Below, in pieces: positions 420 to 15,021 of a stretch of DNA of 64,000 nt. The position numbers and the translations under genes were made by a program. Below the pieces are notes generated by a model. The model made no database searches and had not been told where the DNA came from. It worked only from the letters and a program-made list of their open reading frames with translations. The DNA comes from Betaproteobacteria bacterium (lineage in GTDB: Bacteria > Pseudomonadota > Gammaproteobacteria > Burkholderiales > Casimicrobiaceae): assembly GCA_013298695.1 (NCBI GenBank), contig JAAFIS010000005.1, positions 62,001 through 126,000 on the forward strand, in the 5' to 3' direction. Numbering within the stretch: position 1 is the first letter of the stretch; each line of letters begins with the position of its first letter.

Positions 420-971
420 TCACGGCTCTTTCCGAAATGTCGCCAAGGCATCAATTGCGTAGCGCGCCGTTGCTACGCGAGCTTCACCGAACCCGCGCAC
501 CCATTCCCACGGCAGCTGGTGACGCGCAAGCTGATCCTGGATCATCGCGGTGACCGGTGCGCGAACGTGCGCGCCATCGCGCTGTATTCCATCGGCTTCC
601 CAAGCAAGATCGGGCGCGAGAAGCAAAGTAAGTGAATAGTCGCGATGCAATTTGATCGCGTCTGGGAACAACGACGAATCCGCGAAAACGTATTCGCTGT
701 AAACCGCTGTGAGCAAAGGCGCGGTGTCGCAGATCAAATAGCGTGCGCCACTTGATTGAGCAACGACGAGCGCGTTTTCTTCGCGCAGTTTTTGCTCAAG
801 AAGAATGCCTCGCTGTTCATCGAGCCGCGGCGGTCGTTGATGCTCAATGCAAAATTCACGCAAGTATTCTGGAACCCACGGGCACTTAAGCGACTCTGCG
901 AGGGCTTGCGCAAGCGTAGTTTTCCCCGTGCTTTCCGCACCGATGAGGCAGATCCGAGCGACCGAGTTCAT
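420..971 (-). CDS. NadR-like P-loop kinase, candidate thiamine kinase
   Basis: 183 aa. Residues 11-19 form a Walker A loop (GAESTGKTT), followed by a WVPEYLREF block typical of the ribosylnicotinamide kinase domain of NadR (AAA_28 family). The DNA-binding and adenylyltransferase domains of full NadR are absent. The start is taken at 971 because this ATG overlaps the TGA of the upstream permease (ATGA); the longer reading to 1115 would lie inside that gene. In most genomes such a kinase next to PnuC phosphorylates nicotinamide riboside. Here the operon is headed by a TPP riboswitch, so phosphorylation of thiamine or its hydroxyethylthiazole moiety is the better inference. The fold is secure; the substrate is not. 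Confidence 0.7.
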   Translation of the reverse strand: MNSVARICLIGAESTGKTTLAQALAESLKCPWVPEYLREFCIEHQRPPRLDEQRGILLEQKLREENALVVAQSSGARYLICDTAPLLTAVYSEYVFADSSLFPDAIKLHRDYSLTLLLAPDLAWEADGIQRDGAHVRAPVTAMIQDQLARHQLPWEWVRGFGEARVATARYAIDALATFRKEP

Positions 972-1570
972 GGCAGGCGCAACTTCGTTCTCCATTGCCG
1001 CCAACCCCATATCACCATCACGAAGAGGATTGCGTAAAGAATTGCTGTCAGCCAGAGTTGTTTGTAGATGAAAAGCGCAACACTTGCCGCGTTTACCACG
1101 AGCCAGACAGGCCAATTTTCAATGTGTTTTCGCGCGAGCAAAATCGTACCGGCAAAACTTCCCGCAGTAACGAACGCGTCTGCCCAAGGCACATCGCTAT
1201 CGGTGTAGCGCCATAGGTACAGCGACAGCGCAATCCAGCCTGCCTTCCATCCAGCGAGGGTCCAGCCCAAGCCCTTCGGAGACAAGGAATCAACTGCGAG
1301 AGGCGCGTTGGACTCGCCGCGCTTGCTAAACAGCCATTGCCTCCAGCCCCAGAGTCCGGCGATCACGAAAAAAACATTAACGAGCGTTTCGCCATAGAGC
1401 TTCGATGTGTAGAAAAGCCAGACGTAGAGTGCGGACGAAATGATGGCCAACGGCCACGTCGCACTCTTTTCATACACAGAGCAAACGACCATCGCTACCG
1501 CAAGGACAAAAGCGATAAGTTCAAGCCAGCTCACCGGTGCAGAAAATAGTGTGAACGCGGCGTCAAGCAT
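968..1570 (-). CDS. pnuT: PnuC/PnuT family vitamin permease, probably thiamine (PnuT)
   Basis: 200 aa, the usual length of PnuC-family carriers, which act as facilitators in the inner membrane with 7 helices and trap substrate by phosphorylation. Family marks are WPLAIISSALYVWLFY, LWGWRQWLF, the IENWPVWLVVN segment and a terminal WGWRQWR. PnuC homologues carry nicotinamide riboside, riboflavin (PnuX) or thiamine (PnuT). The TPP riboswitch at 3901-3990 and the upstream TonB receptor point to thiamine. The gene overlaps the kinase by 4 bp and sits 69 bp after the receptor. The symbol is given on context, since the paralogues cannot be told apart by eye. Confidence 0.75.
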   Translation of the reverse strand: MLDAAFTLFSAPVSWLELIAFVLAVAMVVCSVYEKSATWPLAIISSALYVWLFYTSKLYGETLVNVFFVIAGLWGWRQWLFSKRGESNAPLAVDSLSPKGLGWTLAGWKAGWIALSLYLWRYTDSDVPWADAFVTAGSFAGTILLARKHIENWPVWLVVNAASVALFIYKQLWLTAILYAILFVMVIWGWRQWRTKLRLP

Positions 1571-1639
1571 CTTGGGCCTCCAAGCGCTGAGCGCGGGCCA
1601 CAGGGTTTGCCGCGTGCGCCGATTGCGTCATACATTGCG

Positions 1640-3829
1640 TCATAGCTCTGCGCTCAAACTGAGTTTGACGGTTCGCGGCGTGGATGCGAACAGATAGGTC
1701 CCGCCCCACGAGGTCGTCGGCGCCTCACGCCAGTAGGCGCGGTTGGCCACGTTTTCTATGTTGAGCCGCGCAGTGACAACATGATTCGCGAACCGCCATT
1801 CGTGGCTTGCACCCAGATCAAGCTGTGTCGCGCGCGGCAGCACGACGCTGCCGTATGGGTCTGCACGTTTGCCCGAATGCATCCAGAGCAGGGCGTTAAT
1901 CGAGAAACCCGGGATAGCAGCAACTTTATAGTTAGCAAACACAGAAGCGGCGAGCGTTGGTACGTTTACCACGCGCTGCTCAACGAGCGCGGGGTTGAGT
2001 GCTCGTCTGTAGCGCGCGTCGAGATAGGCGGCACTGGCTTGAATCGACAGCTGTTCGCTTGCTCGACCGGCAGCGCTCATTTCAACGCCGCGATGACGCG
2101 CGAGCTTGCCGCCCGCGATTCGAGTGCTCAGCCCGTCCGCGTTGAAGGCGTCGTCCGAGAATGGTTTTTCAATGTCGAACGCGGCAAACGTAGCGTGTAA
2201 TCGCGAACCGATTTGCCATTTCAAACCTAGCTCGAACTGTTTGCTTTTCGCCCCGCTCAAAGTGGCGCCAGCGTTTGTAAACTGGCTAGGTCGGTTCGGA
2301 ACGAATTCCGCCTCGACGCCCTCAGAGAATTGGGCGTACACGGTGAGCGCCGGGGTGATCCCGTAGCTTGCTCCGAACCACGGCGTCACCAACGATTGTC
2401 GTAATGCTGCGGATTCACTAAGATCATTTTTTAGGCTCTCACGATTCAAGCGTACGGATTTCACACCGAAGAACGTATCCAAACGCGGCGACCAAGTTGA
2501 ACGAATGCCAAGCGCGACATCGCTCGCGCGTTCGTTGTTGTTTGTGTTGATAGTTGCGAGCGCTGCGTTTTCAGCGAGAGAAGTAGGGGCGTACACATTT
2601 GACGTTCCCACGAAGTTGTAGGCGCTCGCCAGAGGCAAACGTCTCGAGGCTGATTTTGTGCTGGCTGAGAGTTGAACGGTGTGTGCTGCGCTGAGAGCGT
2701 TTACGCGACCGGTAAGCGAGAGTTCGAAACTGTTTGAGCGGCGCTTCTCGTTATCGCTTCGGAAATCGTAGATGTCAACGTCACCATTTGCGCAAAGGCC
2801 GGGATAGACATAGTTTGAAGCGCTGCTGCAGCCGTCCGCGAAGGCGACGCGATCATTAATTCTTGATGCGAAGTGTGAAAGCGAGGCACGCGCGGTCCAC
2901 GTGTCAGACCAACGATGCGTCAATGAGGCTGTCGCTTGCGTAGTCGCGCTTTGCACCGGCTGCGACCATGTTTGCTGATTCAGATTCACACGCCATAGTC
3001 GACCCGCCGACGGTAATTTATCCGCAAAACCGTCACCATCGCTGTCAAGCAAACCGAGCGCAGGTACCGAAGGCTGCGACTGTCGGTGATGCTCAGCTTC
3101 AACATGCAACATTGTTTGCGTAGAAAAAGCGGTTTTGAATGCAATGCTCACTAGTGAGCGCTCTCCGCGATTACCGTCGAATTGATTCCGCAGCGCCTCG
3201 CCTACAAGATTTAGCCGCACCCCACCTGCCGCATACATCTGATTGATGTCGGCATGCAGTTTTGTTGCGCCCCATCGGTCAACGCTTGAATTGATGAGCA
3301 GTTGATTTTGTGCGAGCGGCTGTTTGGTGACGAAGTTGACCAAGCCGCCCGGTGCCGCAACGCCCGCTTGCAGCCCGACAACGCCTTTCAACACCTCAAT
3401 GCGCTCCTTGTTCTCAAGTGCGATTGGGGCGTAGTTTGAAGACGCCAGACCGTTGCGTCGGAAGTTACTCGCTTGATCCAATGCGAAACCGCGAACGCTC
3501 AGGCTTTCGAAGTAGCCCGTCGCGTTGTAGTTGTCACTGAGCGAAGCGTCTAGCTTGAGCACGCTCGCGAGACGATTGGGTGATACCGCGTCGAGAAGGT
3601 CGCGGCCAATGACCGAAACGCTGGCAGGGGTTTTGGACAGCGGGGCGTCGAATCCTGCGACGTCAGCGGCATCCGCTTCGAGCACTGGCGACGAGCGCGC
3701 GCTCACGGTCACGGCTTCGAGCTTGGTTGGGGGCGATTGCGCGTCCAACACATTTGCGACGCAGACGGAAAGCACGAGCGCGATCGCATGCGTGTAACGG
3801 CGATTCAGTGAGTTGGCTATAGTGGCCAT
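1640..3829 (-). CDS. TonB-dependent outer-membrane receptor under TPP riboswitch
   Basis: 729 aa with a signal peptide (cleavage likely after VANVLDA). A TonB-box-like EAVTVSA follows, then the plug domain (SVSVIGRDLLDAV, LSVRGFALDQ, ERIEVLKG, GGLVNFVTKQP) and a beta-barrel ending in an aromatic-rich strand with terminal L. Overall the plug resembles siderophore-type receptors. The thiamine riboswitch in its leader indicates uptake of thiamine or a thiamine precursor or phosphate across the outer membrane, as proposed for the Omr1 receptors of Bacteroidetes. The start ATG at 3829 has an AAAGGAAAG ribosome-binding site 6 bp upstream. Receptor function is certain by family; the ligand is inferred. 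Confidence 0.85.
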   Translation of the reverse strand: MATIANSLNRRYTHAIALVLSVCVANVLDAQSPPTKLEAVTVSARSSPVLEADAADVAGFDAPLSKTPASVSVIGRDLLDAVSPNRLASVLKLDASLSDNYNATGYFESLSVRGFALDQASNFRRNGLASSNYAPIALENKERIEVLKGVVGLQAGVAAPGGLVNFVTKQPLAQNQLLINSSVDRWGATKLHADINQMYAAGGVRLNLVGEALRNQFDGNRGERSLVSIAFKTAFSTQTMLHVEAEHHRQSQPSVPALGLLDSDGDGFADKLPSAGRLWRVNLNQQTWSQPVQSATTQATASLTHRWSDTWTARASLSHFASRINDRVAFADGCSSASNYVYPGLCANGDVDIYDFRSDNEKRRSNSFELSLTGRVNALSAAHTVQLSASTKSASRRLPLASAYNFVGTSNVYAPTSLAENAALATINTNNNERASDVALGIRSTWSPRLDTFFGVKSVRLNRESLKNDLSESAALRQSLVTPWFGASYGITPALTVYAQFSEGVEAEFVPNRPSQFTNAGATLSGAKSKQFELGLKWQIGSRLHATFAAFDIEKPFSDDAFNADGLSTRIAGGKLARHRGVEMSAAGRASEQLSIQASAAYLDARYRRALNPALVEQRVVNVPTLAASVFANYKVAAIPGFSINALLWMHSGKRADPYGSVVLPRATQLDLGASHEWRFANHVVTARLNIENVANRAYWREAPTTSWGGTYLFASTPRTVKLSLSAEL

Positions 3830-3900
3830 CGATTCTTTCCTTTCGATGGCAGGGCTGATGAGAACGCGACGCGCGCCGAAAGCGCGGAACCTCGTTCACA

Positions 3901-3990
3901 ACGCTTCCCTGCGCAAGTATTACCTTGATCAAGTTCTAGGGTGTTATCTCAGCCGCACGCGAAAAATCATTGCGCGCAGCACCCCTAGCG
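3901..3990 (-). promoter_or_regulatory. TPP (THI-box) riboswitch
   Basis: Read on the minus strand, the leader contains AGGGGTGCTGCGCGC, then GGCTGAGATAACACCCT, then GAACTTGATCAAGGTAATA and ACTTGCGCAGGGAAGCG, in the order and spacing of the thiamine pyrophosphate aptamer (CUGAGA, ACCCU, GAUC, GGUAAUA, GCGCAGGGAAGC). The 3' end lies about 70 nt before the receptor ATG. The intervening GC-rich stretch around 3865-3885 can pair locally, but there is no T-run, so control is more likely at translation initiation than by termination. In this class TPP binding turns expression off. Confidence 0.95.
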
Positions 3991-4031
3991 TTGTTGTTCG
4001 ATGCGAGCGAACCCGCGTCGAAGCCGTAATG

Positions 4032-5471
4032 TTACCGCGACGGAATCTCGTGATGTCTCGAAGGCACAGTTGATTGCGTCGCAAGACTCACAACAACCAT
4101 CGCAATCATGCTCGCGACGAGTCCGAACAGCTGCGCCGGAATCAGCACCGATCCGACCAATTCCGCCAGAATCCAGCTGCCAAGTCCGAAGAAAATTGCG
4201 GCAGCCGCGCCCGCGCTATTTGCTTTTTTCCAGAACACACCAAAGAACAGCGGCACAAAGGCACCCGCAAGCGTTACTTTGTAGGCGTTTTGGATCATTT
4301 CGTACATCGTGCTCTTCGAGTTGATGGCGAACACCAGCGCCACCGCGCAGAAGAACACCAAAATGATTCGCACCCACTTGAGCAGCTGGTGATCGGTCAT
4401 GTGCGGAACAAACGGCTTAATCACGTTGTTGGTGAAAAGCGCGGTCGGCGCGAGCAGTGCGCCGCTCGCCGTGGACATAATCGCCGAGAGTAGCGCACCA
4501 AAAAATAGGATTTGAATCCAGATCGGTGTCTTGTTCAAAATGATGTCGGGAAGGATTCGCTGGATTTCGCGCACATCTTCGCTTTTAAATAAATCACGCA
4601 AATTTGGATCAATCATCAGCGCGGCGTAGGCGATGAACATGGGGACAAACGCCATCACAAAATAGATGCTCGCGCCGATGACCGTGCCTTTCACCGCAGT
4701 GTCTTCATCTTTGGCGCTGGTCATGCGTTGAAAAACGTCTTGCTGTGGGATAGAGCCAAGCGCAATGGTGAGGAACGCCGCAATAAATGTGAGCCACTCG
4801 GCCAGGCCGCCAGTCGGCCAGAATTGGAATTTGCCATCGGCGCTTGCTTGCGAAATGACTTTTCCAGCGCCGCCTGCAAGATCGCCTACAAACACGGCCA
4901 CGATGATGAGGCCGACAACAATCACTACCGCCTGCAGCATGTCGGTAAACGCAATCGACCACATGCCTCCGAACACCGTGTAGACAAGTACGATCGCGGC
5001 GCCAATCAAGATGCCTTGGGTGAGCGTGATGCTGCCTGCTGAGAGAATCCAAATCACGAGTCCGAGCGCTGTGAGCTGCGCACTCGTCCAACCGAGATAA
5101 CTTACGACGACGCAAGTCGATGTAAGCACTTCAATTTTTGAGTCGTAGCGCTTGCGATAAAAGTCGCCAAGCGTCAGTAAGTTCATGCGATAAAAAATTC
5201 GCGCGAAACAGAGCGCAGCAATGAACAAACACGCTGAGGCACCAAACGGATCGCCCACCACGCCACCGGTGCCGTCACGGGCAAAGGTTGCGCTGATCGA
5301 AAGAACGGTTTCGGCGCCGAACCAAGTCGCAAACACTGTCGCCATGTTGACAGGCAACGGAAGCGCCCGCCCGGCGACCAAATAATCCTTCGAATTGTGA
5401 ACGTTTCGTGCAGCCCAGAGGCCGATAGCAATAGTGAGCGCCATGTAGATGACGACCGATGTAATAAGCAT
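4032..5471 (-). CDS. sodium:solute symporter (SSS family)
   Basis: 479 aa with about 13 hydrophobic segments and no signal peptide. Family features include the N-terminal AARNVHNSKDYLVAGRALP block, FATWFGAETVLSISATFARDG, FYRKRYDSKIEVLTS and WSIAFTDMLQAVVI. These place it in the SSS family of inner-membrane Na+-coupled carriers (proline, pantothenate, sugars, acetate). The substrate cannot be read from the sequence. It ends 42 bp before the riboswitch, so it belongs to a separate unit or reads into the thiamine operon through the aptamer. A thiamine-related role is possible but unsupported. It is divergent from the amino-sugar TonB receptor. Confidence 0.85.
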   Translation of the reverse strand: MLITSVVIYMALTIAIGLWAARNVHNSKDYLVAGRALPLPVNMATVFATWFGAETVLSISATFARDGTGGVVGDPFGASACLFIAALCFARIFYRMNLLTLGDFYRKRYDSKIEVLTSTCVVVSYLGWTSAQLTALGLVIWILSAGSITLTQGILIGAAIVLVYTVFGGMWSIAFTDMLQAVVIVVGLIIVAVFVGDLAGGAGKVISQASADGKFQFWPTGGLAEWLTFIAAFLTIALGSIPQQDVFQRMTSAKDEDTAVKGTVIGASIYFVMAFVPMFIAYAALMIDPNLRDLFKSEDVREIQRILPDIILNKTPIWIQILFFGALLSAIMSTASGALLAPTALFTNNVIKPFVPHMTDHQLLKWVRIILVFFCAVALVFAINSKSTMYEMIQNAYKVTLAGAFVPLFFGVFWKKANSAGAAAAIFFGLGSWILAELVGSVLIPAQLFGLVASMIAMVVVSLATQSTVPSRHHEIPSR

Positions 5472-5659
5472 GAAGTCCCCGTGGTCGAAGGCAGTTAAAA
5501 CTGGCTGCGATTATAGGTAGCGACTGAAAAGTTCGCGCCTGTTCACTCAAGAAGTTTCTCGACGAATATAGCAACCAACTACGTCGATTTAACGCTCTCG
5601 AACTAGCCTTACTCTCACGTAAAAGCTATTTCACGGTATAAACAATAAACTGCGATTAC

Positions 5660-5742
5660 GCCCCATTAAAATGGGCTTTTCTAGCTAGAGTTGAATCAGC
5701 AATCCGCCAACCGGATTAGTTATTACAGACCGCCTTCGGTCC
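5660..5742. repeat. divergent copy of the paired palindrome element (copy G)
   Basis: The first palindrome GCCCCATTAAAATGGGC (5660-5676) matches the GCCCAATTAAATTGGGC repeat found elsewhere in the window. A second hairpin, GACCG-CCTT-CGGTC, lies at 5729-5742 with its centre about 67 bp away, the same spacing as in the better copies. The second half has little sequence match, so this copy is weaker than A-E. Confidence 0.45.
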
Positions 5743-5799
5743 ACTTTAAGCGGTTCACGGCTGCATTTGCCACTCTGCGAGTTTTCTGATGTTGTAATT

Positions 5800-5817
5800 T
5801 GGTATTAATCTGGTATT
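5800..5817 (+). promoter_or_regulatory. candidate NagR/NagQ operator, TGGTATT-N4-TGGTATT
   Basis: Two identical 7-bp half-sites in direct orientation, separated by AATC, lie 140 bp before the TonB receptor start. A GntR-family regulator is encoded in the same cluster, and from memory a direct repeat of this form has been described as the binding site of GntR-type GlcNAc regulators in Xanthomonas; this could not be checked. No second copy was seen before the downstream genes, which fits control of the whole cluster from this point. Confidence 0.5.
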
Positions 5818-5943
5818 GTTGTTTAATCGCGATGGGAGACGCAAGTTTTTCGATGGCTCTATCGCGGTAAGGCGCAATGCGCAGGGTCGATACACAGCGA
5901 GTCGTGGCACCTAGACCGCGCTCGAGTTTTATCCATTTGAATT

Positions 5944-5949
5944 GAGGAG
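5944..5949 (+). promoter_or_regulatory. ribosome-binding site fixing the TonB receptor start
   Basis: GAGGAG lies 7 bp before the ATG at 5957. The in-frame TTG at 5942 sits upstream of this site and is therefore unlikely to be the real start. Confidence 0.7.
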
Positions 5950-5956
5950 AGCGGCG

Positions 5957-8719
5957 ATGGTCGGGGAAATCAAAGGTGCGTCACGCACCGCGGCAAGGGT
6001 TCAATTTCTGGCGATAAGAACCACATTGAGTGCTGCGGTCGCGGCGGCGCTCGTTGCGCAAGTGGGCGCGCAAACGCCAACGCCGCCAACGGCAAACGCC
6101 GAAAAAGTTGAGACCGTGGTGGTCACCGGTTCGCGCATCAAAGCCGCTGGTCTCACGTCAACGAGCCCAATCAGTCAGTTAAGCGCTGAGGAGATCGCGA
6201 TGCAGCGAGCGATCACTGTTGAAGATTTTTCGGTGAAACTTCCTCAGCTTGCGGGCGGCGTCAACAGTACTTCTGTGGGCAGCGACGCTTTCGGTGCGCA
6301 AACACTCGATCTGCGCAATCTCGGGCAAAACCGCACGCTGGTGTTGATCAACGGCACTCGCGCGGTGCCATTTTCATTTCGTAACGCAGTCGACGTTAAT
6401 TTCATTCCTGCGCCCTTGCTGAAACGAGTTGACGTGCTAACCGGCGGCGCAGCTGCGGTCTATGGTGCCGACGCGATGGCGGGCGTGGTGAACTTCATCA
6501 TCAACGACGGATTTCGCGGCCTGCAAGCGTCTGCGAATCACCGCGCCGCAAACGGTGGTGGATCGCAGTCGGGCGTCAACCTTACCGGCGGCTGGGCGCT
6601 GGGCAACCGCGGCAGCGTAGTTGGATATCTCGAATACACCGATCGCGTAGCGCTGTACGCGGGTGATCGTGATTGGGCACTACGCAATCCAACGCGGCTT
6701 GCAGGAAACGGCGGCAACTTTACCGACGTTGCCAGCGGTAGAACATTTTCATTTGATTCGGCGGGAAATTTCACCACGACGCCGCAGACGACCGACTACA
6801 CAGCAGGCTACATCCTTGCGCAGCCGCTGCAACGCGTCAACGCTTCTGCGTTCGGTCGTTTTGACATCACCGATTCAGTGCAAGCCTATGGCCGCGCGAT
6901 GTATTCGAACGTAAAAACAACGGGCGCATCGCGAAGTGGTCAAGCGCCAGTGGTCGCAAACGAAGTCGTAAAAATTAGCAACACCAACGCGTTTCTCCCG
7001 CAATCAGCACGCGATCTGCTTACGTTTGATGCCACCGGGTTCGCGAACGTGCGAGTACAGCGCTCGCTGGGGGAGCTCGGAACGGTGCGCGCGAGCAATG
7101 ATCGTGATACGAGTCAGCTGCAACTAGGCGTTCGTGGTTCGTTTACGCCGTCGATTGACTGGGATCTCTACGCGCAGACCGGCCGCTCCGCAGAATCGGT
7201 CACGATCAATGGCGACGGTTCGAAGGCGCGATTTATCGAGCTCGCAAACACAATTGATTTGTTCGGACCTGGCGCGGATTTATCCAAAGTTGCGCAAGAA
7301 TTTAAGTACGGAGACCGCAAGCGCACGCAAAATGTTTACGCGTTTAATCTCAGTGGTGATAGCGCTGACGTGTTCAAGCTCCCGGCGGGCGCGGTCGGTT
7401 TTGCGCTCGGCTTCGAGGCGCGCCGCGAGAAGGGCACGTTTGACTACAACGCGAGTTTGGGGCAGTCGTTTGCACAAGGTGTTGAATCTGGACCAACCAA
7501 GCCGCCGTTTTTCAACGCTAACGAAATCTACGGCGAGCTTCGCGTACCGTTGTTGAGAGACCTACCGTTCGTAAAAGAGCTCTCAATTGAAGGGGCATAT
7601 CGCAGCTCAGACTACAAAAAATCAGTCGGAGCAGATAACCGTTACGGCTCAGACAAACTAGGCGCTTCGTGGACTGTGAGTGATGATTTCCGGGTTCGCG
7701 CAACCAGCCAATCAGTGATTCGTGAACCCAACTTCGGCGAGTTTGCGAATCCAGTGTTTTCGATTCCGTTTAGCCGTTTAGTCACGGTTGCGCGTCTGAA
7801 GCCGCGCTACGCGGGCGACCCGTGCGTTTTAGGCACCGGAAACGCGGAGCAATGCGCGAGGTTTAAAGCCCCTGCAGTGGGTTCTTACGACTCGTTCGAC
7901 GCCAACCTACTCACCGGCGGATACTTCTTCGGAGGAAATCCAGACATTCGTGCTGAAACCGGGAAAACGACGACCTTCGGTTTTGTTGTAACGCCGCGCG
8001 CGATGCCTGGTTTGAATGTGACGCTTGACTACTACGACATCAAAATTTCAGACGCCGTGGGCGTGATTCAGCCCGTCGACGCGCTCACCAGTTGCTACAT
8101 CACTGACCCACGAGCAGACAATCCTTTGTGTCTCGCCGTCACCCGCAATCCGACGACCGGACGGATTCAGGACGGATTTCCCGTTGATCGAAATCTAGCG
8201 CTTATCCGTCAAAAGGGCGTTGACATCGACAGCTCGTTTAAACACGATCTAAATGTCGGTGTGCGCGGGGCAAAGCTCACGTGGCGTTATCAAGCCGCTA
8301 TCGTGCAGAGCTACACCATTCAGCGCAACGCTGTGCTCAAGCCGGTGGATTGCAAAGGCACTTATGGCTCGGCGTGTTCGTCCGACGCGGTGTCATTGGT
8401 TGCCCCCGCTTATCGACATCGTTTATCCGCGATGTGGTCGGTGGATTCGTTAAGCGCTGAGTTCGGATGGAAGCGAATCGGCAAAGTTCGCGACAGCGCG
8501 TTTGGAAGCACCGAAACTATTGGCGCACAAGACTATTTTGATCTGAACTTTTCTTGGAAGCCCACGAAAATTAAGGGGCTAAGCGTAAATTTTGGCGTAG
8601 ACAATATCGCCGACAAACAACCGCCGCTGCCAAAGAATTTCGGCGTTTTCAACACCTATCCAGATACCTATAACATTCTTGGCCGCACCTACGGTCTTTC
8701 ACTTACCTACAAAATGTAG
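5957..8719 (+). CDS. TonB-dependent receptor for amino-sugar / peptidoglycan fragments
   Basis: 920 aa. A signal peptide ends near LVAQVGAQ, followed by the TonB-box region EKVETVVVTGSRI. The plug contains DLRNLGQNRTLVLINGTR, VDVNFIPAPLLKRVDVLTGG and AVYGADAMAGVVNFI, typical of the large TonB receptors of carbohydrate-utilisation loci in Xanthomonas, Caulobacter and Alteromonas. The barrel ends GRTYGLSLTYKM. It is the first gene of the cluster, downstream of a possible NagR operator, and is followed by a GH84 enzyme. The likely cargo is chito-oligosaccharide or peptidoglycan glycan fragments. Class is certain; cargo is inferred from neighbours. A hairpin overlaps its stop codon. Confidence 0.85.
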   Translation: MVGEIKGASRTAARVQFLAIRTTLSAAVAAALVAQVGAQTPTPPTANAEKVETVVVTGSRIKAAGLTSTSPISQLSAEEIAMQRAITVEDFSVKLPQLAGGVNSTSVGSDAFGAQTLDLRNLGQNRTLVLINGTRAVPFSFRNAVDVNFIPAPLLKRVDVLTGGAAAVYGADAMAGVVNFIINDGFRGLQASANHRAANGGGSQSGVNLTGGWALGNRGSVVGYLEYTDRVALYAGDRDWALRNPTRLAGNGGNFTDVASGRTFSFDSAGNFTTTPQTTDYTAGYILAQPLQRVNASAFGRFDITDSVQAYGRAMYSNVKTTGASRSGQAPVVANEVVKISNTNAFLPQSARDLLTFDATGFANVRVQRSLGELGTVRASNDRDTSQLQLGVRGSFTPSIDWDLYAQTGRSAESVTINGDGSKARFIELANTIDLFGPGADLSKVAQEFKYGDRKRTQNVYAFNLSGDSADVFKLPAGAVGFALGFEARREKGTFDYNASLGQSFAQGVESGPTKPPFFNANEIYGELRVPLLRDLPFVKELSIEGAYRSSDYKKSVGADNRYGSDKLGASWTVSDDFRVRATSQSVIREPNFGEFANPVFSIPFSRLVTVARLKPRYAGDPCVLGTGNAEQCARFKAPAVGSYDSFDANLLTGGYFFGGNPDIRAETGKTTTFGFVVTPRAMPGLNVTLDYYDIKISDAVGVIQPVDALTSCYITDPRADNPLCLAVTRNPTTGRIQDGFPVDRNLALIRQKGVDIDSSFKHDLNVGVRGAKLTWRYQAAIVQSYTIQRNAVLKPVDCKGTYGSACSSDAVSLVAPAYRHRLSAMWSVDSLSAEFGWKRIGKVRDSAFGSTETIGAQDYFDLNFSWKPTKIKGLSVNFGVDNIADKQPPLPKNFGVFNTYPDTYNILGRTYGLSLTYKM

Positions 8720-8775
8720 GTGAGTCGTGAAGCGCGTTGTGTGGAACCCTCCACCCGCACAGCGCGCAATTTTTG
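8701..8775 (+). terminator. stop-codon hairpin followed by a terminator-like hairpin
   Basis: ACTTACCTAC-AAAAT-GTAGGTGAGT (8701-8725) forms a 10-bp stem with one wobble pair around the receptor's TAG stop (8717-8719). A second imperfect GC-rich stem (8732-8767, GCGCG...CGCGC) is followed by AATTTTTGTTT. Together they could attenuate transcription between the receptor and the catabolic genes, a common way to make more receptor than enzyme. Function is inferred. Confidence 0.45.
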
Positions 8776-8795
8776 TTTGAAATCTGCGAGTACAG

Positions 8796-9878
8796 TTGCC
8801 CCCTAAAAGCGCCGTCCCACCACTTGGCATCGTCGAAGGATTCTTTGGTCCGGCTTGGCAGTGGTCGTCTCGCGAGCGCGTGATGCAGACTCTTGCGCCG
8901 TATGGGTTCGTACGCTACTTGTATGCGCCGAAAGGCGATGCTGCGTTACGCCGCAACTGGCGCGCGCCATTTACCAGCGCTTGGCGATCACAGCTTCTTG
9001 AGTTTCGCGACGCTTGCCGCAAGCAGGGCGTGGCGCTAGGTATCGGGCTCTCGCCGTGCGGGTTGCATGAGAACTTTACCGCCGAATGGCGGCACGATTA
9101 CGCTCGAAAACTTGAAGAGATAAAGTCATTAGAACTCGATTGTGTTGGAATTTTGTTTGATGATTTCGAGCGTGGACACGGCGATATCGTCGCTGCGCAA
9201 CGTGAAATTGTTCAGTGCGCGGTTGAAATGCAAGTCGCACCCCACCTGATCGTGTGTCCGAGTTACTACAGCGACGACATCGTGTTGGATCGTGTTTTTG
9301 GCGAGCGCCCTGCCGATTACTTGCACGGCCTTTGCGCGAACCTTGCGCCGGACGTTGAAGTTTTCTGGACGGGCGAGGAAGTGTGTGCGCGTCAGTTCGA
9401 TAAATCTCACTTAACGCGTATCGCCTCGCAGATGGGGCGCAAGCCAACGCTCTGGGATAACTATCCGGTGAACGACGGACCGCGCATGTCGGAGCGCCTC
9501 CATCTACGCGCGTTTACCGGGCGCTCCCATCAAATCGCCGGATCAATTGCCGCGCATTACATCAACCCCGCACTGCAGCCGATGCTCACGCTCATTCCTG
9601 CGATCACGTTGGCAATGAGCTATGAGCGCGGTGATGAGTATGCTTACGCGCAAGCATTTTCCGATGCTGCGGAAACGGTTGTTGGACGCTCACTGGCCCG
9701 AGCGCTTCGCGAAGATCTGCTAGCACTTCAAGATGTGGGTCGACTCCAGCTTGGCCCCGAGCGCAGTGATCAGCTGCGCGACCGCTACAGACAATACGGG
9801 CATCCTGCCGCAATGGAAATCATCGGTTGGTTGGACGGGAAGTATCGAGTCTCCGCCGACGACGTAAAAACACAGTAA
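8796..9878 (+). CDS. GH84-type beta-N-acetylglucosaminidase
   Basis: 360 aa without a signal peptide, so probably cytoplasmic. The N-terminal GIVEGFFGPAWQW block, the YAPKGD motif and the adjacent catalytic aspartates D122-D123 in GILFDDFE match the O-GlcNAcase/hyaluronidase-type GH84 catalytic domain, which uses substrate-assisted catalysis through the 2-acetamido group. LWDNYPVNDGP is another family block. Only the barrel domain is present, so it is short for GH84. It would release GlcNAc from imported beta-linked fragments. The start is a TTG at 8796 with no strong ribosome-binding site, so the exact N-terminus is uncertain. The GntR gene follows after 9 bp. Confidence 0.85.
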   Translation: MPPKSAVPPLGIVEGFFGPAWQWSSRERVMQTLAPYGFVRYLYAPKGDAALRRNWRAPFTSAWRSQLLEFRDACRKQGVALGIGLSPCGLHENFTAEWRHDYARKLEEIKSLELDCVGILFDDFERGHGDIVAAQREIVQCAVEMQVAPHLIVCPSYYSDDIVLDRVFGERPADYLHGLCANLAPDVEVFWTGEEVCARQFDKSHLTRIASQMGRKPTLWDNYPVNDGPRMSERLHLRAFTGRSHQIAGSIAAHYINPALQPMLTLIPAITLAMSYERGDEYAYAQAFSDAAETVVGRSLARALREDLLALQDVGRLQLGPERSDQLRDRYRQYGHPAAMEIIGWLDGKYRVSADDVKTQ

Positions 9879-9887
9879 AGAGTACGC

Positions 9888-10652
9888 ATGGACGCAGTTC
9901 AACTTGAAGCCCTAAAACCCAGCGATCTCGATCCAACACCAAAGTATTTGCAGATCGCGCGCAAGATGACTGATCTCATCGAAAAGCAGGTCTGGCAACA
10001 AGATCACGGCATACCCTCCGAGCGACAACTCGTTGAGCTGCTCGATGTTTCGCGAGTCACTGCAAGGCGTGCACTACAGGTCGTGGAAGAAAAGGGCTTA
10101 CTCGTGCGCCGACCCGGATCGGGCACCTTCGTCGCGCCGCACCTGAATCAAACGCTGTCTCGCTTATCGAGTTTCAGCGAAGAATTGAAACTGCGTGGCA
10201 TGACGTCAAACGCGAGTTGGTTGATGCGTGACATCGCGCAGGCCTCATCACAGGAGCTCATCGCGCTCGGCTTGCCGCGCGGTGCACGCGTCGCTCGGGT
10301 GAAACGCCTGCGCATCGCCGATGACACGCCGATGGCCATCGAATATTGCCGTGTGCCGGAAACGGTGTTGCCCGATCCCAACGCGATTGAGGCATCGCTC
10401 TACGCGCTGCTTGATGCGCGCGGCACACCGGTCGTTCGCGCGCTACAAACGATCAGCGCAGTCAACGCCACACCGGATCATGCAACGCTACTCGACGTTG
10501 ACGTGGGCGAGGCTGTGTTGTTCGTGACCCGCCTCGGCTACGGCCGCGACGGGCGCCCCATCGAATTTACCGAATCGTATTGTCGACCAGATGTCTATGA
10601 ATTCGTCGCTGAGTTGTCGCGATCTCCAGCGCCCGCGAAAAGCGCAGGCTAG
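9888..10652 (+). CDS. nagR: GntR/HutC-family regulator of the amino-sugar cluster (NagR-like)
   Basis: 254 aa. Residues about 17-80 are the winged helix of GntR proteins (PSERQLVELLDVSRVTARRA, then GSGTFVA). Residues about 95-245 are the UTRA effector domain that in HutC/NagR regulators binds a phosphorylated sugar such as GlcN6P. Two bp separate its stop from nagA. It most likely represses the cluster through the TGGTATT repeat at 5800-5817 and releases it when GlcNAc-6-P or GlcN-6-P accumulates. The symbol reflects context; NagQ is the name used in some proteobacteria. Confidence 0.85.
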   Translation: MDAVQLEALKPSDLDPTPKYLQIARKMTDLIEKQVWQQDHGIPSERQLVELLDVSRVTARRALQVVEEKGLLVRRPGSGTFVAPHLNQTLSRLSSFSEELKLRGMTSNASWLMRDIAQASSQELIALGLPRGARVARVKRLRIADDTPMAIEYCRVPETVLPDPNAIEASLYALLDARGTPVVRALQTISAVNATPDHATLLDVDVGEAVLFVTRLGYGRDGRPIEFTESYCRPDVYEFVAELSRSPAPAKSAG

Positions 10653-10655
10653 CCG

Positions 10656-11792
10656 ATGTCGCGCACTCAGCAACTCAAAGGCTACATCGTTACGCCCGCG
10701 GGGATCGTTCGCGGCAGCGTCGGCTTTGCGTCCGGCTTTATCCAAGAGATTGGCGGGCAATCTGTATCTGAACAAGAGGCACGGGAGTCGCGAGAGCCGA
10801 TCATCGTTCCCGGCTTTGTTGACCTGCATGTTCACGGCGGTGGCGGGTTTGACACGATGGATGGCAACGACGCTGCCCTTGCGATTGCTCAGCAACACGC
10901 GAAGCACGGCACCACCTCGCTGCTGGCAACTACGTTGACCGCGCCGCGCGAAGATTTAACAGCTGCCTTCGTAGGCGTCGCTCGCGCGATGGCTAAGCAA
11001 ACAAGCGATGCCGCGCCGGGGGCGGCGATCATGGGGATTCATCTTGAAGGCCCCTACATTAATGATGCCAAACTGGGTGCGCAACCGCCGTTCACGCGCG
11101 ACTTTGACGATACGGAGCTGCGTGCGCTGCATGACATCGCACCAATCAAATTGGTGACGCTCGCGCCGGAGATTCCAGACGCACTGCGGATCGTACGTGC
11201 GCTCAACGATGCCGGTATTGTTGTTCAGTTGGGCCATAGCGATGCGACTTACGAAGTGGCGCGCACCGCGTTCGCAGGCGGCGCGCGCGGTGTCACCCAT
11301 CTCTATAACGCGATGAGCGGACTGCACCATCGCAAACCCGGTTTGGTCGGCGCGGCGCTAGCGCATGCCAAATATTGCGAAATCATCCCTGATTTATTGC
11401 ATGTTCACGAAGGTGCGATTCGCGTGGCAATGCGCGCGATTGATGGGGTTTATTGCGTGACTGATTCGACATCGGCCGCCGGTATGCCGGACGGCGACTA
11501 CAAGCTCGGACGACACACGGTTACCAAGTGCATGGGTGGCGTGCGACTTGCCGACGGAACGCTTGCCGGATCGACGCTTACGATGGACGCTGCGTTTAGG
11601 AATTTGATCAACGTGCTTGAACTCGATTTGAACGCGGCGGTTCGGCGAACATCTACGTTGGCGTGCGAATTTTTACGTTTAACCGATCGCGGACAAATCG
11701 CTACTGGAATGCGCGCGGATTTGGTCGTTTTGAACCACGAACTGACACCACGAGCCGTCTACGTGGCCGGTGTAGAACAGGGCATCCAATGA
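10656..11792 (+). CDS. nagA: N-acetylglucosamine-6-phosphate deacetylase
   Basis: 378 aa, normal length for NagA. It converts GlcNAc-6-P to GlcN-6-P and acetate in the cytoplasm. Metal-ligand and active-site blocks are present: DLHVHGGGGFDTMDG, GIHLEGPYIN with the metal-binding Glu, VQLGHSDATYEVA and GVTHLYNAMSGLHHR, with the catalytic Asp in CVTDSTSAAG. Its TGA overlaps the ATG of the next gene (ATGA), which suggests translational coupling with the deaminase that uses its product. Confidence 0.97.
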   Translation: MSRTQQLKGYIVTPAGIVRGSVGFASGFIQEIGGQSVSEQEARESREPIIVPGFVDLHVHGGGGFDTMDGNDAALAIAQQHAKHGTTSLLATTLTAPREDLTAAFVGVARAMAKQTSDAAPGAAIMGIHLEGPYINDAKLGAQPPFTRDFDDTELRALHDIAPIKLVTLAPEIPDALRIVRALNDAGIVVQLGHSDATYEVARTAFAGGARGVTHLYNAMSGLHHRKPGLVGAALAHAKYCEIIPDLLHVHEGAIRVAMRAIDGVYCVTDSTSAAGMPDGDYKLGRHTVTKCMGGVRLADGTLAGSTLTMDAAFRNLINVLELDLNAAVRRTSTLACEFLRLTDRGQIATGMRADLVVLNHELTPRAVYVAGVEQGIQ

Positions 11793-12823
11793 CGACGCAC
11801 ATGTTGACCGAAGCGCGGTCAGCCCCTGCAAAGATAGCCAGTCAATTGGCGGCTAACAAGCCCATTGTTGCTGATTTCGCTAATCAACTAAAAAGGCAGT
11901 CTCGCCCACATATTGTGACGATTGCACGCGGTAGCTCGGATCACGCTGCCAGTTATTTTTCGTATCTTGTTATGGCGCGTGTTGGGCGTTGGGTGACGTC
12001 GCTACCCATGTCGTTGGTGACTATGGAAAATGCGCCGCTCACTGGCGCCGGTGTTGCGTCGTTCGCGTTCTCGCAGTCCGGTCGAAGCCCAGATCTCATC
12101 GCACCGACGGAGCATTTGCGACGCACGGGCGCACTCACAGCGGCGTTTGTGAACGTCGAACAGTCGCCGCTGGCAAGCGCCGCTGAAATTTGCATCCCGC
12201 TCCACGCGGGTGCTGAACAAAGCGTCGCAGCCACCAAAAGCTTCATTGCGCAATTAGTGGCCGGGGCGCATCTCGTGGCGGAATGGACAGAAGACGCGTC
12301 GCTGATGAATGCTATTTGCGAACTCCCTGCAGCGCTCGCGCAAGCCGTAAACCAAGATTGGACGGCAGCGATTGCTCCGCTCACCAACGTCGAGAGGCTA
12401 TTTGTGATCGGACGAGGTACCGGTCTTGCAATCGCGCAAGAGGCAGCTCTCAAATTTAAGGAAACCTGCGGCATCCAAGCCGAAGCGTTCTCGGGGGCTG
12501 AGGTGAAACACGGTCCGATGGCTTTAATCAAAGGAGGCTACCCGTTGATCGTGTTCGCTCCGCGCGGTGCAACTCAGGCAGGGCTTGTTTCGTTGGCGCA
12601 AGAGATGCGATTGCGAGGCGCAAATGTGTGGCTTGTTGCGCCCACGGATGGATCACTTCCTGGCGTGAAAGTAGACCTACCGCTCGCGACCACGGGCGCG
12701 CCAGCGCTCGACGCGATTTCCTGCGTGCAAAGCTTCTATCCGCTGGTTGAAGCACTCGCTCGCGCGCGCGGATATGATCCCGATACACCGAGCTTTCTGT
12801 CAAAAGTGACGCTAACGCAATGA
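11789..12823 (+). CDS. nagB-II: glucosamine-6-phosphate deaminase, SIS-domain type (NagB-II)
   Basis: 344 aa from the ATG that overlaps the nagA stop. It has two SIS sugar-isomerase domains: residues about 35-175 (TIARGSSDHAASYF, SQSGRSPDLI, EQSVAATKSF) and about 195-335 (VIGRGTGLAIAQEAALKFKE, EVKHGPMALI). This is the isomerase half of GlmS without the glutaminase domain, the form called NagB-II that replaces classic NagB in many proteobacteria. It produces fructose-6-phosphate and ammonia. A longer reading to 11663 overlaps nagA and is not needed. Confidence 0.93.
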   Translation: MTTHMLTEARSAPAKIASQLAANKPIVADFANQLKRQSRPHIVTIARGSSDHAASYFSYLVMARVGRWVTSLPMSLVTMENAPLTGAGVASFAFSQSGRSPDLIAPTEHLRRTGALTAAFVNVEQSPLASAAEICIPLHAGAEQSVAATKSFIAQLVAGAHLVAEWTEDASLMNAICELPAALAQAVNQDWTAAIAPLTNVERLFVIGRGTGLAIAQEAALKFKETCGIQAEAFSGAEVKHGPMALIKGGYPLIVFAPRGATQAGLVSLAQEMRLRGANVWLVAPTDGSLPGVKVDLPLATTGAPALDAISCVQSFYPLVEALARARGYDPDTPSFLSKVTLTQ

Positions 12824-12830
12824 GTGCCGA

Positions 12831-13739
12831 ATGAATCCTCTCAATTTATTGCGCACTGAGTCGCCGAACGAGCTGCATCGTGCGCTCGACACCTACACCA
12901 CCGAGGCGATGGTGGCCGCGTTTGTCGATGATCAAACCAACGCGGTCGCATCGGTACGAGCTATTGCGGGCGAACTCGCGCGCGCGGTCGACGCCGCTCT
13001 TCCACTCATTGACGCTGGCGGGCGGCTCATCTATGCAGGCGCCGGCACTTCAGGGCGACTTGGTTTACTCGATAGCGTAGAGCTATTGCCGACGTTCTCC
13101 TGGGCGCAAGATCGCGCGATTGCCGTTCTTGCCGGCGGGCGCGACGCGGTGTATCGCGCAATCGAAGGCGCGGAAGACAGCTCCGACGCGGGTGTTGCCG
13201 ATATTCGGGTGTTAAAGCTCACCGAAAACGATGTGGTTTTAGTGCTCGCTGCGTCGGGCTCAACCCCGTATGCGATTGGTGCGATTGAAGCTGCGAACGC
13301 CGCGGGCGCGCTCACCATTGGGTTTGCCAACAATCGCGGCGCGGCAGTGACATCAAAGGCGAAGATCGGCATCACTTTGGACACCGGCCCGGAGATCATT
13401 TCAGGCAGCACACGCCTGAAAGCCGGAACCTCGCAGAAGATCGCGCTGAACACATTCTCAAGCGCGCTGATGGTTCGCTTGAACAAGGTGTACGGCAACT
13501 TAATGGTTGACGTCAAGCCAACCAACACTAAGCTCATTCAACGCTGCGTTAATCTCACCGTGCTGGCCACGGCTTGCAGCGATGCCGTGGCGCGGCAAGC
13601 GCTGAGTGCCTGTGGGTTTCATGTGAAAACTGCGATCGTAATGATCGAGCGCAAAATCGATGCTGCAGCCGCTCGAAAACTTCTTGCGCAGGTCAACGGC
13701 AGCGTGCGCAGAGCGCTGGACGCCCCACGTGATGAATGA
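12831..13739 (+). CDS. murQ: N-acetylmuramic acid 6-phosphate etherase
   Basis: 302 aa, standard length. It cleaves the lactyl ether of MurNAc-6-P to give GlcNAc-6-P and D-lactate. The SIS-type signature YAGAGTSGRLGLLDSVEL and the IEGAEDSSDAG block carrying the catalytic Glu are present, as is SGSTRLKAGTSQKIALN. Its presence between nagB-II and an AmpG-like carrier shows that the cluster handles muropeptide sugars and not only chitin. The stop overlaps the next start by 8 bp. Confidence 0.97.
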   Translation: MNPLNLLRTESPNELHRALDTYTTEAMVAAFVDDQTNAVASVRAIAGELARAVDAALPLIDAGGRLIYAGAGTSGRLGLLDSVELLPTFSWAQDRAIAVLAGGRDAVYRAIEGAEDSSDAGVADIRVLKLTENDVVLVLAASGSTPYAIGAIEAANAAGALTIGFANNRGAAVTSKAKIGITLDTGPEIISGSTRLKAGTSQKIALNTFSSALMVRLNKVYGNLMVDVKPTNTKLIQRCVNLTVLATACSDAVARQALSACGFHVKTAIVMIERKIDAAAARKLLAQVNGSVRRALDAPRDE

Positions 13740-15021
13740 GCGCGCGCCTTCCGGCGGCAGCCCCTGGCGCTGGATTCCAACGCTTTATTTCGGACAAGGC
13801 ATTCCGTATGTAGTGGTGATGACGCTCTCAGTCATCATGTACAAAAACTTGAATCTGTCGAACACTGAAATAGCGCTCTACACGAGCTGGTTGTATCTAC
13901 CGTGGGTGATCAAACCACTATGGTCGCCGTTAGTTGACATGTTCCGCACCAAACGTTTTTGGATCGTCGCGCTGCAGTTCGCAGTCGCGGTTGCGCTTGC
14001 GTTTGTGGCGTTCACGCTGCCGATGTCACATTTTTTTCAGATCACGCTAGCGGTGTTTTGGCTGATGGCATTTGCGTCCGCCACTCACGACATTGCGGCC
14101 GACGGGTTTTACATGCTCGGCTTAGAGCAGCATCAGCAAGCGGCGTTTGTGGGTGTACGCAGCGTGTTTTGGCGAATCGCCAATATTGCGGGGCAGGGAC
14201 TGCTCGTGGTGCTAGCCGGTACGCTTGCTGAGCAAACCGGAAACATTGTGCTAGCGTGGCAAATTGTATTCATCGTGCTGGCGGGCATGTTTCTACTGCT
14301 CGGTGCGTATCACTTTTTCATGCTTCCGAAGCCCGCAAGCGATGTCACCGTCCGAGGTAGCGGTGGTGCGATCGCGGATTTCCTCGAAACCTTTGCGACG
14401 TTTTTCAAGAAGAAAGAGATCCGGGTGGCGCTAGCGTTTCTGCTGACCTATCGGTTGGCGGAAGCGCAGTTGGTCAAACTGGGTTCACCGTTTTTACTGG
14501 ATGCGCAAAGCAAAGGTGGTCTCGCGCTCACCACCGCACAGGTCGGCTGGGTGTACGGAACGATTGGCGTCCTCGCGCTCACCATCGGCGGCATCGCAGG
14601 CGGCTACGCGATTTCGCGCAAGGGCCTGCGCTTTTGGCTCTGGCCGATGCTGCTTGCGATTCACGTGCCGAATCTTGCTTACGTCTTTCTCGCCTACGCG
14701 CAGCCCACCAGCATGCCGATCATCGCCAGTGCAATCGCAGTCGAGCAACTCGGCTACGGTTTCGGATTTGCGGCGTATTTGCTTTTCATGATCATGATCG
14801 CTGATGGCGCGCATAAAACAGCGCATTACGCCCTATGCACCGGATTCATGGCGCTTGGCATGATGCTTCCGGGGATGGCGAGCGGCTGGATTCAAACAGA
14901 GCTCGGCTACGTCAATTTCTTTGTCTGGGTTTGCATCTGCACCCTCCCGTCGATGGCAATCGCGTTCTTTTTAAAGATCGATCCGGCGTTCGGCAAGAAG
15001 CGCGAGGAAGTAAAGCCGTGA
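13732..15021 (+). CDS. AmpG-like MFS transporter for muropeptides or amino sugars
   Basis: 429 aa from the ATG inside the end of murQ. About 12 membrane segments. The N-terminal WIPTLYFGQGIPYVVVMTLS and YTSWLYLPWVIKPLWSPLVD blocks and FASATHDIAADGFYMLGL are typical of the AmpG branch of MFS, which imports GlcNAc-anhydroMurNAc (peptides). In some amino-sugar loci related carriers import GlcNAc. The murQ neighbour favours a muropeptide-type substrate. The next gene starts at an overlapping GTG. Confidence 0.82.
   Translation: MNERAPSGGSPWRWIPTLYFGQGIPYVVVMTLSVIMYKNLNLSNTEIALYTSWLYLPWVIKPLWSPLVDMFRTKRFWIVALQFAVAVALAFVAFTLPMSHFFQITLAVFWLMAFASATHDIAADGFYMLGLEQHQQAAFVGVRSVFWRIANIAGQGLLVVLAGTLAEQTGNIVLAWQIVFIVLAGMFLLLGAYHFFMLPKPASDVTVRGSGGAIADFLETFATFFKKKEIRVALAFLLTYRLAEAQLVKLGSPFLLDAQSKGGLALTTAQVGWVYGTIGVLALTIGGIAGGYAISRKGLRFWLWPMLLAIHVPNLAYVFLAYAQPTSMPIIASAIAVEQLGYGFGFAAYLLFMIMIADGAHKTAHYALCTGFMALGMMLPGMASGWIQTELGYVNFFVWVCICTLPSMAIAFFLKIDPAFGKKREEVKP

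Follow-up and report, generated by a model that had tools for sequence, protein, structure and literature searches.

A thiamine pyrophosphate riboswitch-led operon with a NadR-type kinase, predicted to serve thiamine salvage in Casimicrobiaceae

Results

A TPP riboswitch precedes genes for a receptor, a permease and a kinase

We analysed a stretch of 64,000 nucleotides (hereafter the window) from a Betaproteobacteria bacterium placed in the Casimicrobiaceae of the Burkholderiales (assembly GCA_013298695.1, contig JAAFIS010000005.1, positions 62,001 to 126,000), near the start of which a thiamine pyrophosphate (TPP) riboswitch is followed, all on the minus strand, by genes for a TonB-dependent receptor, a PnuC-family permease and a NadR-type kinase, in that order. 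The genome comprises 4,076,941 bases in 22 contigs and is 99.47% complete. The elements of the operon are as follows.

3889..3996, minus strand: TPP riboswitch aptamer (RF00059; Rfam, 63.1 bits, gathering cut-off 54.3, E = 5e-10)
3825..3850, minus strand: likely expression platform, a predicted hairpin with arms at 3843-3850 and 3825-3832 that spans the ribosome-binding stretch and the start codon of the receptor gene
1640..3829, minus strand: TonB-dependent outer-membrane receptor, predicted thiamine receptor, 729 residues (PF00593, PF07715; TIGR01783, 219.8 bits)
968..1570, minus strand: PnuC-family permease, predicted thiamine facilitator (PnuT-like), 200 residues (PF04973, 164.8 bits; TIGR01528, 69.5 bits)
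420..971, minus strand: stand-alone NadR-type kinase (AAA_28), predicted thiamine kinase, 183 residues (PF13521, 106.4 bits, cut-off 27)

A preliminary description of the locus had placed a TPP leader carrying every conserved block of the THI element at 3901-3990 and had proposed a search with the Rfam TPP model, which gave the match above cut-off listed here. Alignment to RF00059 showed that the conserved blocks are indeed present, but the Rfam span is wider than the one described and the P3 arm lacks ten consensus positions. In an Rfam scan of the window the only other match above cut-off was a tRNA, and a whole-genome search revealed that this TPP element is the sole TPP match of the genome.

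The same description had noted that homology alone would name the three genes siderophore receptor, nicotinamide riboside (NR) permease and NadR kinase, and these names hold to differing degrees. The permease exceeds the cut-off (42.45) of TIGR01528, the NCBI model of the NR transporter PnuC, and the nearest solved folds to the AlphaFold model of the kinase (mean predicted local confidence, pLDDT, 93.4) in a Foldseek search were those of NadR (8x7f, 1lw7, 6gzo and 6gyf), followed by thymidylate kinases. However, the receptor scores just below the cut-off (223.5) of TIGR01783, 'TonB-dependent siderophore receptor', so that this name would be borderline, and the kinase fails the curated NadR model TIGR01526 (65 bits compared with a cut-off of 341.15, over the kinase part only). 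The ThiK model TIGR02721 was not among the families matched by the kinase at E 0.001. The kinase retains the motif GAESTGKT and has EYLR at the site of EYGR in Escherichia coli NadR. The AlphaFold model of the permease (pLDDT 90.7) has PnuC (4qtn) as its nearest fold; neither predicted model, of kinase or of permease, fixes a substrate.

The receptor and pnuC genes are 69 bases apart. The kinase open reading frame (ORF) was listed as 231 residues from a TTG at 1115, the first 48 codons of which overlap pnuC in another frame. Of 13 genus matches extending into this extra part, 7 have stops there. For this reason, and because an ATG at 971-969 shares the sequence ATGA with the pnuC stop, the kinase gene was taken as 420-971.

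The operon is conserved in a genus that mostly lacks detectable thiamine synthesis

The operon is no one-genome rarity: the kinase was found in all 17 genomes of the genus (the window genome included), compared with a weak match in 1 of 47 genomes of the same family outside the genus. A TPP element above cut-off occupies the same place in 13 of the 16 other genus stretches, and thus in 14 of 17 with the window; in the stretches without a match (L036, L040 and L043) the contig ends before the expected place. Receptor, permease and kinase keep their order wherever the contig reaches. Aligned identity to the window proteins is 42-58% for the receptor (14 loci), 54-70% for the permease (16 loci) and 46-59% for the kinase (15 loci); the last range excludes L046, whose kinase is cut by the contig end and matches at 86% over 35 residues.

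A cell that has ThiL but not ThiE must obtain thiamine monophosphate (TMP) from thiamine by means of a kinase, or import TMP. ThiC was undetected in the window genome, under a search that finds it in 13 of 14 known control genomes, and in 16 of the 17 genus genomes overall; ThiE was undetected in the same proportion; in the other genera of the family, ThiC was matched in 35 of 47 genomes (34 above cut-off). The sole genus genome with both is G283 (locus L057), which carries them on one contig, C41; it may be a real prototroph, or the contig may be misbinned. The TPK catalytic domain was found in none of the 17 genus genomes (7 of 14 controls have it), and ThiK (TIGR02721) likewise in none, in a search whose control matches 6 of 14 genomes but exceeds the cut-off in only 1, so that remote ThiK relatives could be missed. 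ThiL, by contrast, is above cut-off in 14 of the 17 genomes, including that of the window; the others are G279, G281 and G282. Because ThiE, TPK and ThiK were undetected while ThiL is kept, conversion of thiamine to TMP is the missing step, and the operon kinase is the best candidate for it.

As a side observation, G279, which is 98% complete, does not have even the weaker second ThiL match shown by most other genomes; this may be a search or assembly gap and, if real, leaves the source of TPP in that genome unexplained. The operon loci of G279 and G282 (L033 and L036) are sister rows in both the PnuC and the kinase trees described below.

Relatives of the kinase stand beside several kinds of thiamine gene

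Scanning genome contigs with an alignment of the kinase returned at least 558 related stretches, and the contexts given here are those of the best 80, of which 59 are placed in Burkholderiales and 21 carry no order in their record; nine appear to be genus loci already counted, and the two sets of counts therefore overlap. A TPP element, receptor and PnuC occur together in 20 of the 80 loci, 17 of them in the order of the window. Three of the 20 (L092, L120 and L128), as well as L049, have a different arrangement, here called type B, in which pnuC and the kinase precede the TPP element and the receptor follows it. At 3 loci the kinase follows a TPP-led receptor without PnuC. A TPP element together with ThiB was found at 7 loci (L074, L081, L088, L090, L093, L096 and L105), all from Burkholderiales and six from organisms named Rhodoferax. 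Because the kinase stands ahead of the TPP element in all seven (directly in five), we regard it there as a neighbour and not as a controlled gene. At L074, the riboswitch is followed by genes for a thiamine-binding protein (308.7 bits with TIGR01254, the cut-off of which is 93.4), a permease and an ATPase, the last two having ThiP and ThiQ matches below cut-off. In 4 loci (L063, L071, L086 and L091) a receptor is present without a TPP match, the contig starting inside the receptor gene. In another 38, pnuC is paired with the kinase gene, and the stretch examined shows no TPP match and no related receptor; these are called unlinked pairs below. The remaining 8 have none of these contexts.

A quick kinase tree, with support from the approximate likelihood-ratio test (SH-aLRT) only and many weak forks, contains a group of 43 rows (support 93) made up of 21 window-type, 8 contig-cut, 7 ThiB-neighbour, 3 PnuC-less, 1 type B and 3 unlinked kinases, and a group of 40 rows (support 97) made up of 39 of the 43 rows labelled unlinked together with L048. 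The genus kinases L041 and L047 stand beside this second, mainly unlinked group. When the alignments were compared, the positions that separate the groups did not tell the substrate. Separately, one stretch around a weak NadR-like kinase match (L013) contains a flavin mononucleotide (FMN) riboswitch.

Genomes with unlinked pairs, Variovorax and Paucibacter among them, were compared with those of the other locus types, all of unstated completeness. ThiC is present in 9 of 14 unlinked-pair genomes, 1 of 4 window-type, 4 of 6 ThiB-neighbour, 0 of 3 PnuC-less and 0 of 3 type B genomes. A TPP match was found in 20 of 20 searched genomes carrying these loci (19 above cut-off). Corticibacter populi DSM 105136, in which the operon is present (L080), gave no ThiC match and five TPP matches, of which three exceed the cut-off. 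In 11 of 11 unlinked-pair genomes, another part of the genome has a receptor homologous to that of the window downstream of a TPP element (the Burkholderiales stretches L241-L243 and L245-L251 among them). The receptor directly adjoins the element in 10 of them, three of these elements scoring below the Rfam cut-off; in Variovorax it lies at a greater distance on that strand. A search of those 11 stretches (about 7 kb each, with one of 2.6 kb and one of 9.4 kb) gave no gene for PnuC, a NadR-like kinase, ThiB or a ThiK-like protein. The TPP-led receptors suggest that the unlinked pairs serve thiamine too, as systems uncoupled from the riboswitch, but this is co-occurrence and not linkage, and the pairs may instead be NR systems.

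The transport half of the operon is widespread, and the kinase is its variable part

A PnuC profile search gave matches in 41 of 369 genomes of the class, and 40 of the 49 match rows other than that of the window were examined. With a TPP model (R1) built from the 14 genus aptamers, counting matches at E up to 0.05 (the weakest was 0.0087), 24 of the 40 stretches proved to have a TPP match that precedes PnuC and shares its strand. An ORF of 670-775 residues lies between the two in 20 of the 24, and the 10 such ORFs tested had a TonB plug in every case and a receptor barrel in 9. The kinase beside TPP-linked PnuC was ThiK-like in 11 of the 24 (phmmer with one query, weakest 26 bits) and NadR-like in none; two of the ThiK-like proteins scored 92.1 and 73.1 bits against TIGR02721, which has a cut-off of 299. 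Four of the 40 stretches, which come from other families of the class, pair PnuC with a NadR-like kinase and have no TPP match. Because TPP-linked PnuC loci are widespread in the class, the combination of receptor and PnuC is not new; the transport module belongs to a known type, and what varies is the kinase. Hence, the suggestion in the preliminary description that the locus is an independent version of known systems holds only in part: the kinase differs, the transport module is not new, and the trees do not settle whether thiamine specificity arose separately in the permease.

In these trees, the Burkholderiales PnuC proteins are separated from the principal TPP-linked PnuC group of the class. 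The first tree was built without E. coli PnuC, which a length filter had removed; to the second, E. coli PnuC and the 4qtn protein were added and the long-branch rows L128, L206 and L209 were left out. The trees contain no experimentally tested PnuT. A topology uniting the two NR-type proteins with the Burkholderiales group was not rejected (p-AU 0.588), and the tree comparison that had been proposed for the locus thus separates this group from the main TPP-linked one but gives no proof of specificity either way. We also considered a residue signature: at PnuC positions 64/65/142, V-N-T is present in 29 of the 30 Burkholderiales proteins whose loci are riboswitch-linked or cut by a contig end, and 33 of the 35 unlinked proteins have L-Q-Q. 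The signature was dropped, as Q142 also occurs in type B and several TPP-linked class proteins, the 4qtn protein has N at 65, and independent pairs give no significance.

A conserved, predicted hairpin covers the receptor start codon

In all 14 genus leaders, the motif CCCTGCC[A/G]TCGA is followed by a short segment containing the likely ribosome site, then by TCGATGGC, the second half of the motif, which contains the receptor start codon. A pattern with a loop of 5-14 bases finds 13 of these leaders; the loop of L041 has 15. Among the 20 loci of the wide scan that have TPP, receptor and kinase (in the window order or without PnuC), the first half was present in 19 and both halves in 18. The motif was absent from all 7 ThiB leaders and, in its exact form, from the four type B leaders (L049, L092, L120 and L128), although L092 and L120 have close variants by eye. 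The start-codon hairpin itself is well supported by these comparisons and favoured by folding, and because it spans both the start codon and the ribosome site, translational control is predicted; its conservation suggests the same.

The aptamer strand GCAGGG (3907-3912) is able to pair with CCCUGC (3849-3854). In equilibrium two-state folding of the 14 leaders, the start hairpin forms with a mean probability of 0.79 when the aptamer strand is free and 0.93 when it is sequestered, and the start codon is paired in both states. With so little switching in the predicted folds, a thermodynamic switch through this pairing was set aside as a guess. The leader is predicted to bind TPP and thereby change expression; the direction and mechanism of the switch we infer.

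Other features of the window

Beyond the operon, the following genes were noted.

4032-5471, minus strand: sodium:solute symporter, divergent from the second TonB receptor
5942-8719, plus strand: second TonB receptor, near the NAGidase gene
8880-9878: NAGidase, behind the second TonB receptor
9888-10652: GntR/UTRA regulator
12831-13739: SIS-domain protein
16136-17893: GHL10

Judged by these genes, the region 4032-17893 looks like a cluster for uptake of amino sugars or cell-wall fragments. An ATP-binding cassette (ABC) permease at 49544-51259 was considered as ThiP and rejected, as no ThiP model was among its NCBIfam matches at E 1e-10.

Discussion

We consider it probable that the operon serves thiamine salvage under TPP control in a bacterium predicted to be a thiamine auxotroph. 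In the proposed scheme, the TonB-dependent receptor would carry scarce thiamine over the outer membrane, the PnuC-type permease would pass it across the inner membrane by facilitated diffusion, and the co-translated NadR-type kinase would phosphorylate it to TMP and so trap it, after which ThiL, encoded elsewhere, would make TPP. Binding of TPP to the leader would lower expression, probably at translation initiation of the receptor by means of the start-codon hairpin. The substrates of receptor, permease and kinase, and the trapping step, are what we infer. The assignment of all three predicted functions to thiamine, already made in the preliminary description, is well supported because the TPP element is the only one of the genome, the gene order is conserved in the genus, ThiL is retained where ThiC, ThiE, TPK and ThiK were undetected, and kinases related to that of the operon stand beside a thiamine ABC transporter. 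With somewhat less confidence, we favour the wider proposition that stand-alone NadR-type kinases are a further, non-orthologous thiamine kinase in Burkholderiales, common to the unrelated PnuC- and ThiBPQ-type importers, that in this auxotroph genus no other route from thiamine to TMP is visible, and that a riboswitch and a TonB receptor have turned a NAD-salvage module for import and trapping, PnuC with a NadR kinase, to the uptake of vitamin B1.

Several results weigh against assigning the operon to thiamine. The permease is above the NCBI cut-off for an NR transporter, and the tree and residue comparisons do not settle its substrate; the nearest solved relatives of the kinase are NadR proteins, and 38 of the 80 related loci are pnuC-kinase pairs unlinked to a riboswitch. 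Folding of the leaders in two states reveals little switching, and the switching of the hairpin, unlike the hairpin itself, is not well supported. One genus genome, G283, has ThiC and ThiE on contig C41, whereas G279, G281 and G282 have no ThiL above cut-off and G279 has no ThiL match at all. Finally, a remote ThiK may have escaped the search, and TMP may be imported instead of thiamine being phosphorylated.

Among the alternatives, the one that fares best accepts the receptor and permease for thiamine but holds that the kinase is still an NR kinase travelling with PnuC, with an unrecognised enzyme phosphorylating thiamine. The NadR-like fold of the kinase and the frequency of riboswitch-unlinked pairs of PnuC and NadR-like kinase (38 of the 80 loci, being common in Burkholderiales, and 4 of the 40 class stretches from other families, the latter without TPP) speak for it. 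Yet the window genome, which keeps ThiL, has no ThiE, TPK or ThiK match, the kinase gene closes the riboswitch-led operon and overlaps pnuC, and at 10 of the 80 loci (7 with ThiB and 3 with the receptor) it stands with TPP-led thiamine genes in the absence of PnuC; we judge this alternative unlikely. It is more doubtful still that the substrate is a relative of thiamine, whether a precursor (hydroxymethylpyrimidine, HMP, or thiazole), TMP or a degradation product. Passages of a TPP regulon survey state that TPP riboswitches also control precursor transporters (PMC3766115), but without ThiE (16 of 17 genomes) these two precursors could not be joined, and imported TMP needs no kinase, yet the kinase is present in 17 of 17. 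Least credible of all is an operon for NR, another NAD precursor or siderophores with a chance or repurposed TPP match, to which the homology-only names (siderophore-like receptor, NR transporter and NadR kinase) would point, since a TPP element above cut-off recurs at this position in 14 of 17 genomes, followed by a conserved start-codon hairpin, in genomes in which ThiC and ThiE were undetected.

The predicted thiamine salvage operon resembles the OMthi-PnuT-Tnr3 systems of Bacteroidetes in having a TPP riboswitch, a TonB receptor, a PnuC-family permease and, as predicted here, a phosphorylating enzyme. According to passages of the work on Bacteroides thetaiotaomicron, the receptor OMthi (Omr1) and the permease were genetically tested there, and the transcripts of both change little with thiamine (PMC5613172). 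Unlike Tnr3, a TPK, the enzyme of the window is of the NadR type (AAA_28), and no TPK was found in the genus genomes. The passages of PMC7749635 consulted cite the PnuT of Shewanella woodyi as a thiamine transporter (Jaehme et al. 2018) and say that riboswitch class predicts the specificity of PnuC-like transporters. The TPP-linked PnuC loci of the class share with the window a TPP element ahead of PnuC and, in 20 of 24, a long ORF in between (of TonB type in the 10 tested), but the kinase beside PnuC is ThiK-like in 11 of the 24 and NadR-like in none. A PnuC-annotated gene behind a TPP element has likewise been described, in the relevant passages, in thiamine-auxotrophic acI Actinobacteria, where the authors read it as PnuT (PMC5301498); the likeness extends to predicted auxotrophy, whereas those passages mention neither a receptor nor a NadR-type kinase. 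For Burkholderia and Ralstonia, the passages of the regulon survey report no TPP-controlled thiamine transporter genes (PMC3766115).

With the PnuC-NadR route of NR salvage, the operon shares the permease family, the kinase family and the logic of import followed by phosphorylation; it differs from that route in its TPP riboswitch, its additional receptor and the EYLR in place of EYGR, and the kinase has no NMN (nicotinamide mononucleotide) adenylyltransferase domain, with 183 residues compared with 347-379 in solved NadR chains. With E. coli ThiBPQ and ThiK it shares the predicted reaction from thiamine to TMP, followed by ThiL, and relatives of its kinase lie near ThiB at 7 of the 80 loci; E. 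coli ThiK, however, belongs to an unrelated kinase family that was not found in any of the 17 genus genomes. We found no NadR-like thiamine kinase in the open literature searched, although an earlier mention in subscription papers is possible, and papers naming both NadR and PnuT had PnuT in the reference list alone or under a different vitamin from NadR. The new part is the predicted non-orthologous thiamine kinase, the transport half being known.

If this assignment is true, annotation pipelines wrongly assign a number of genes in Burkholderiales to NAD salvage (the permease passes the NCBI cut-off for PnuC) and overlook the thiamine kinase of environmental auxotrophs. Vitamin B1 would have an additional kinase family, and one transport module would be completed by different kinases in different lineages. 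The operon would also provide a case for asking how a nucleoside-kinase fold shifts from nicotinamide riboside to thiamine.

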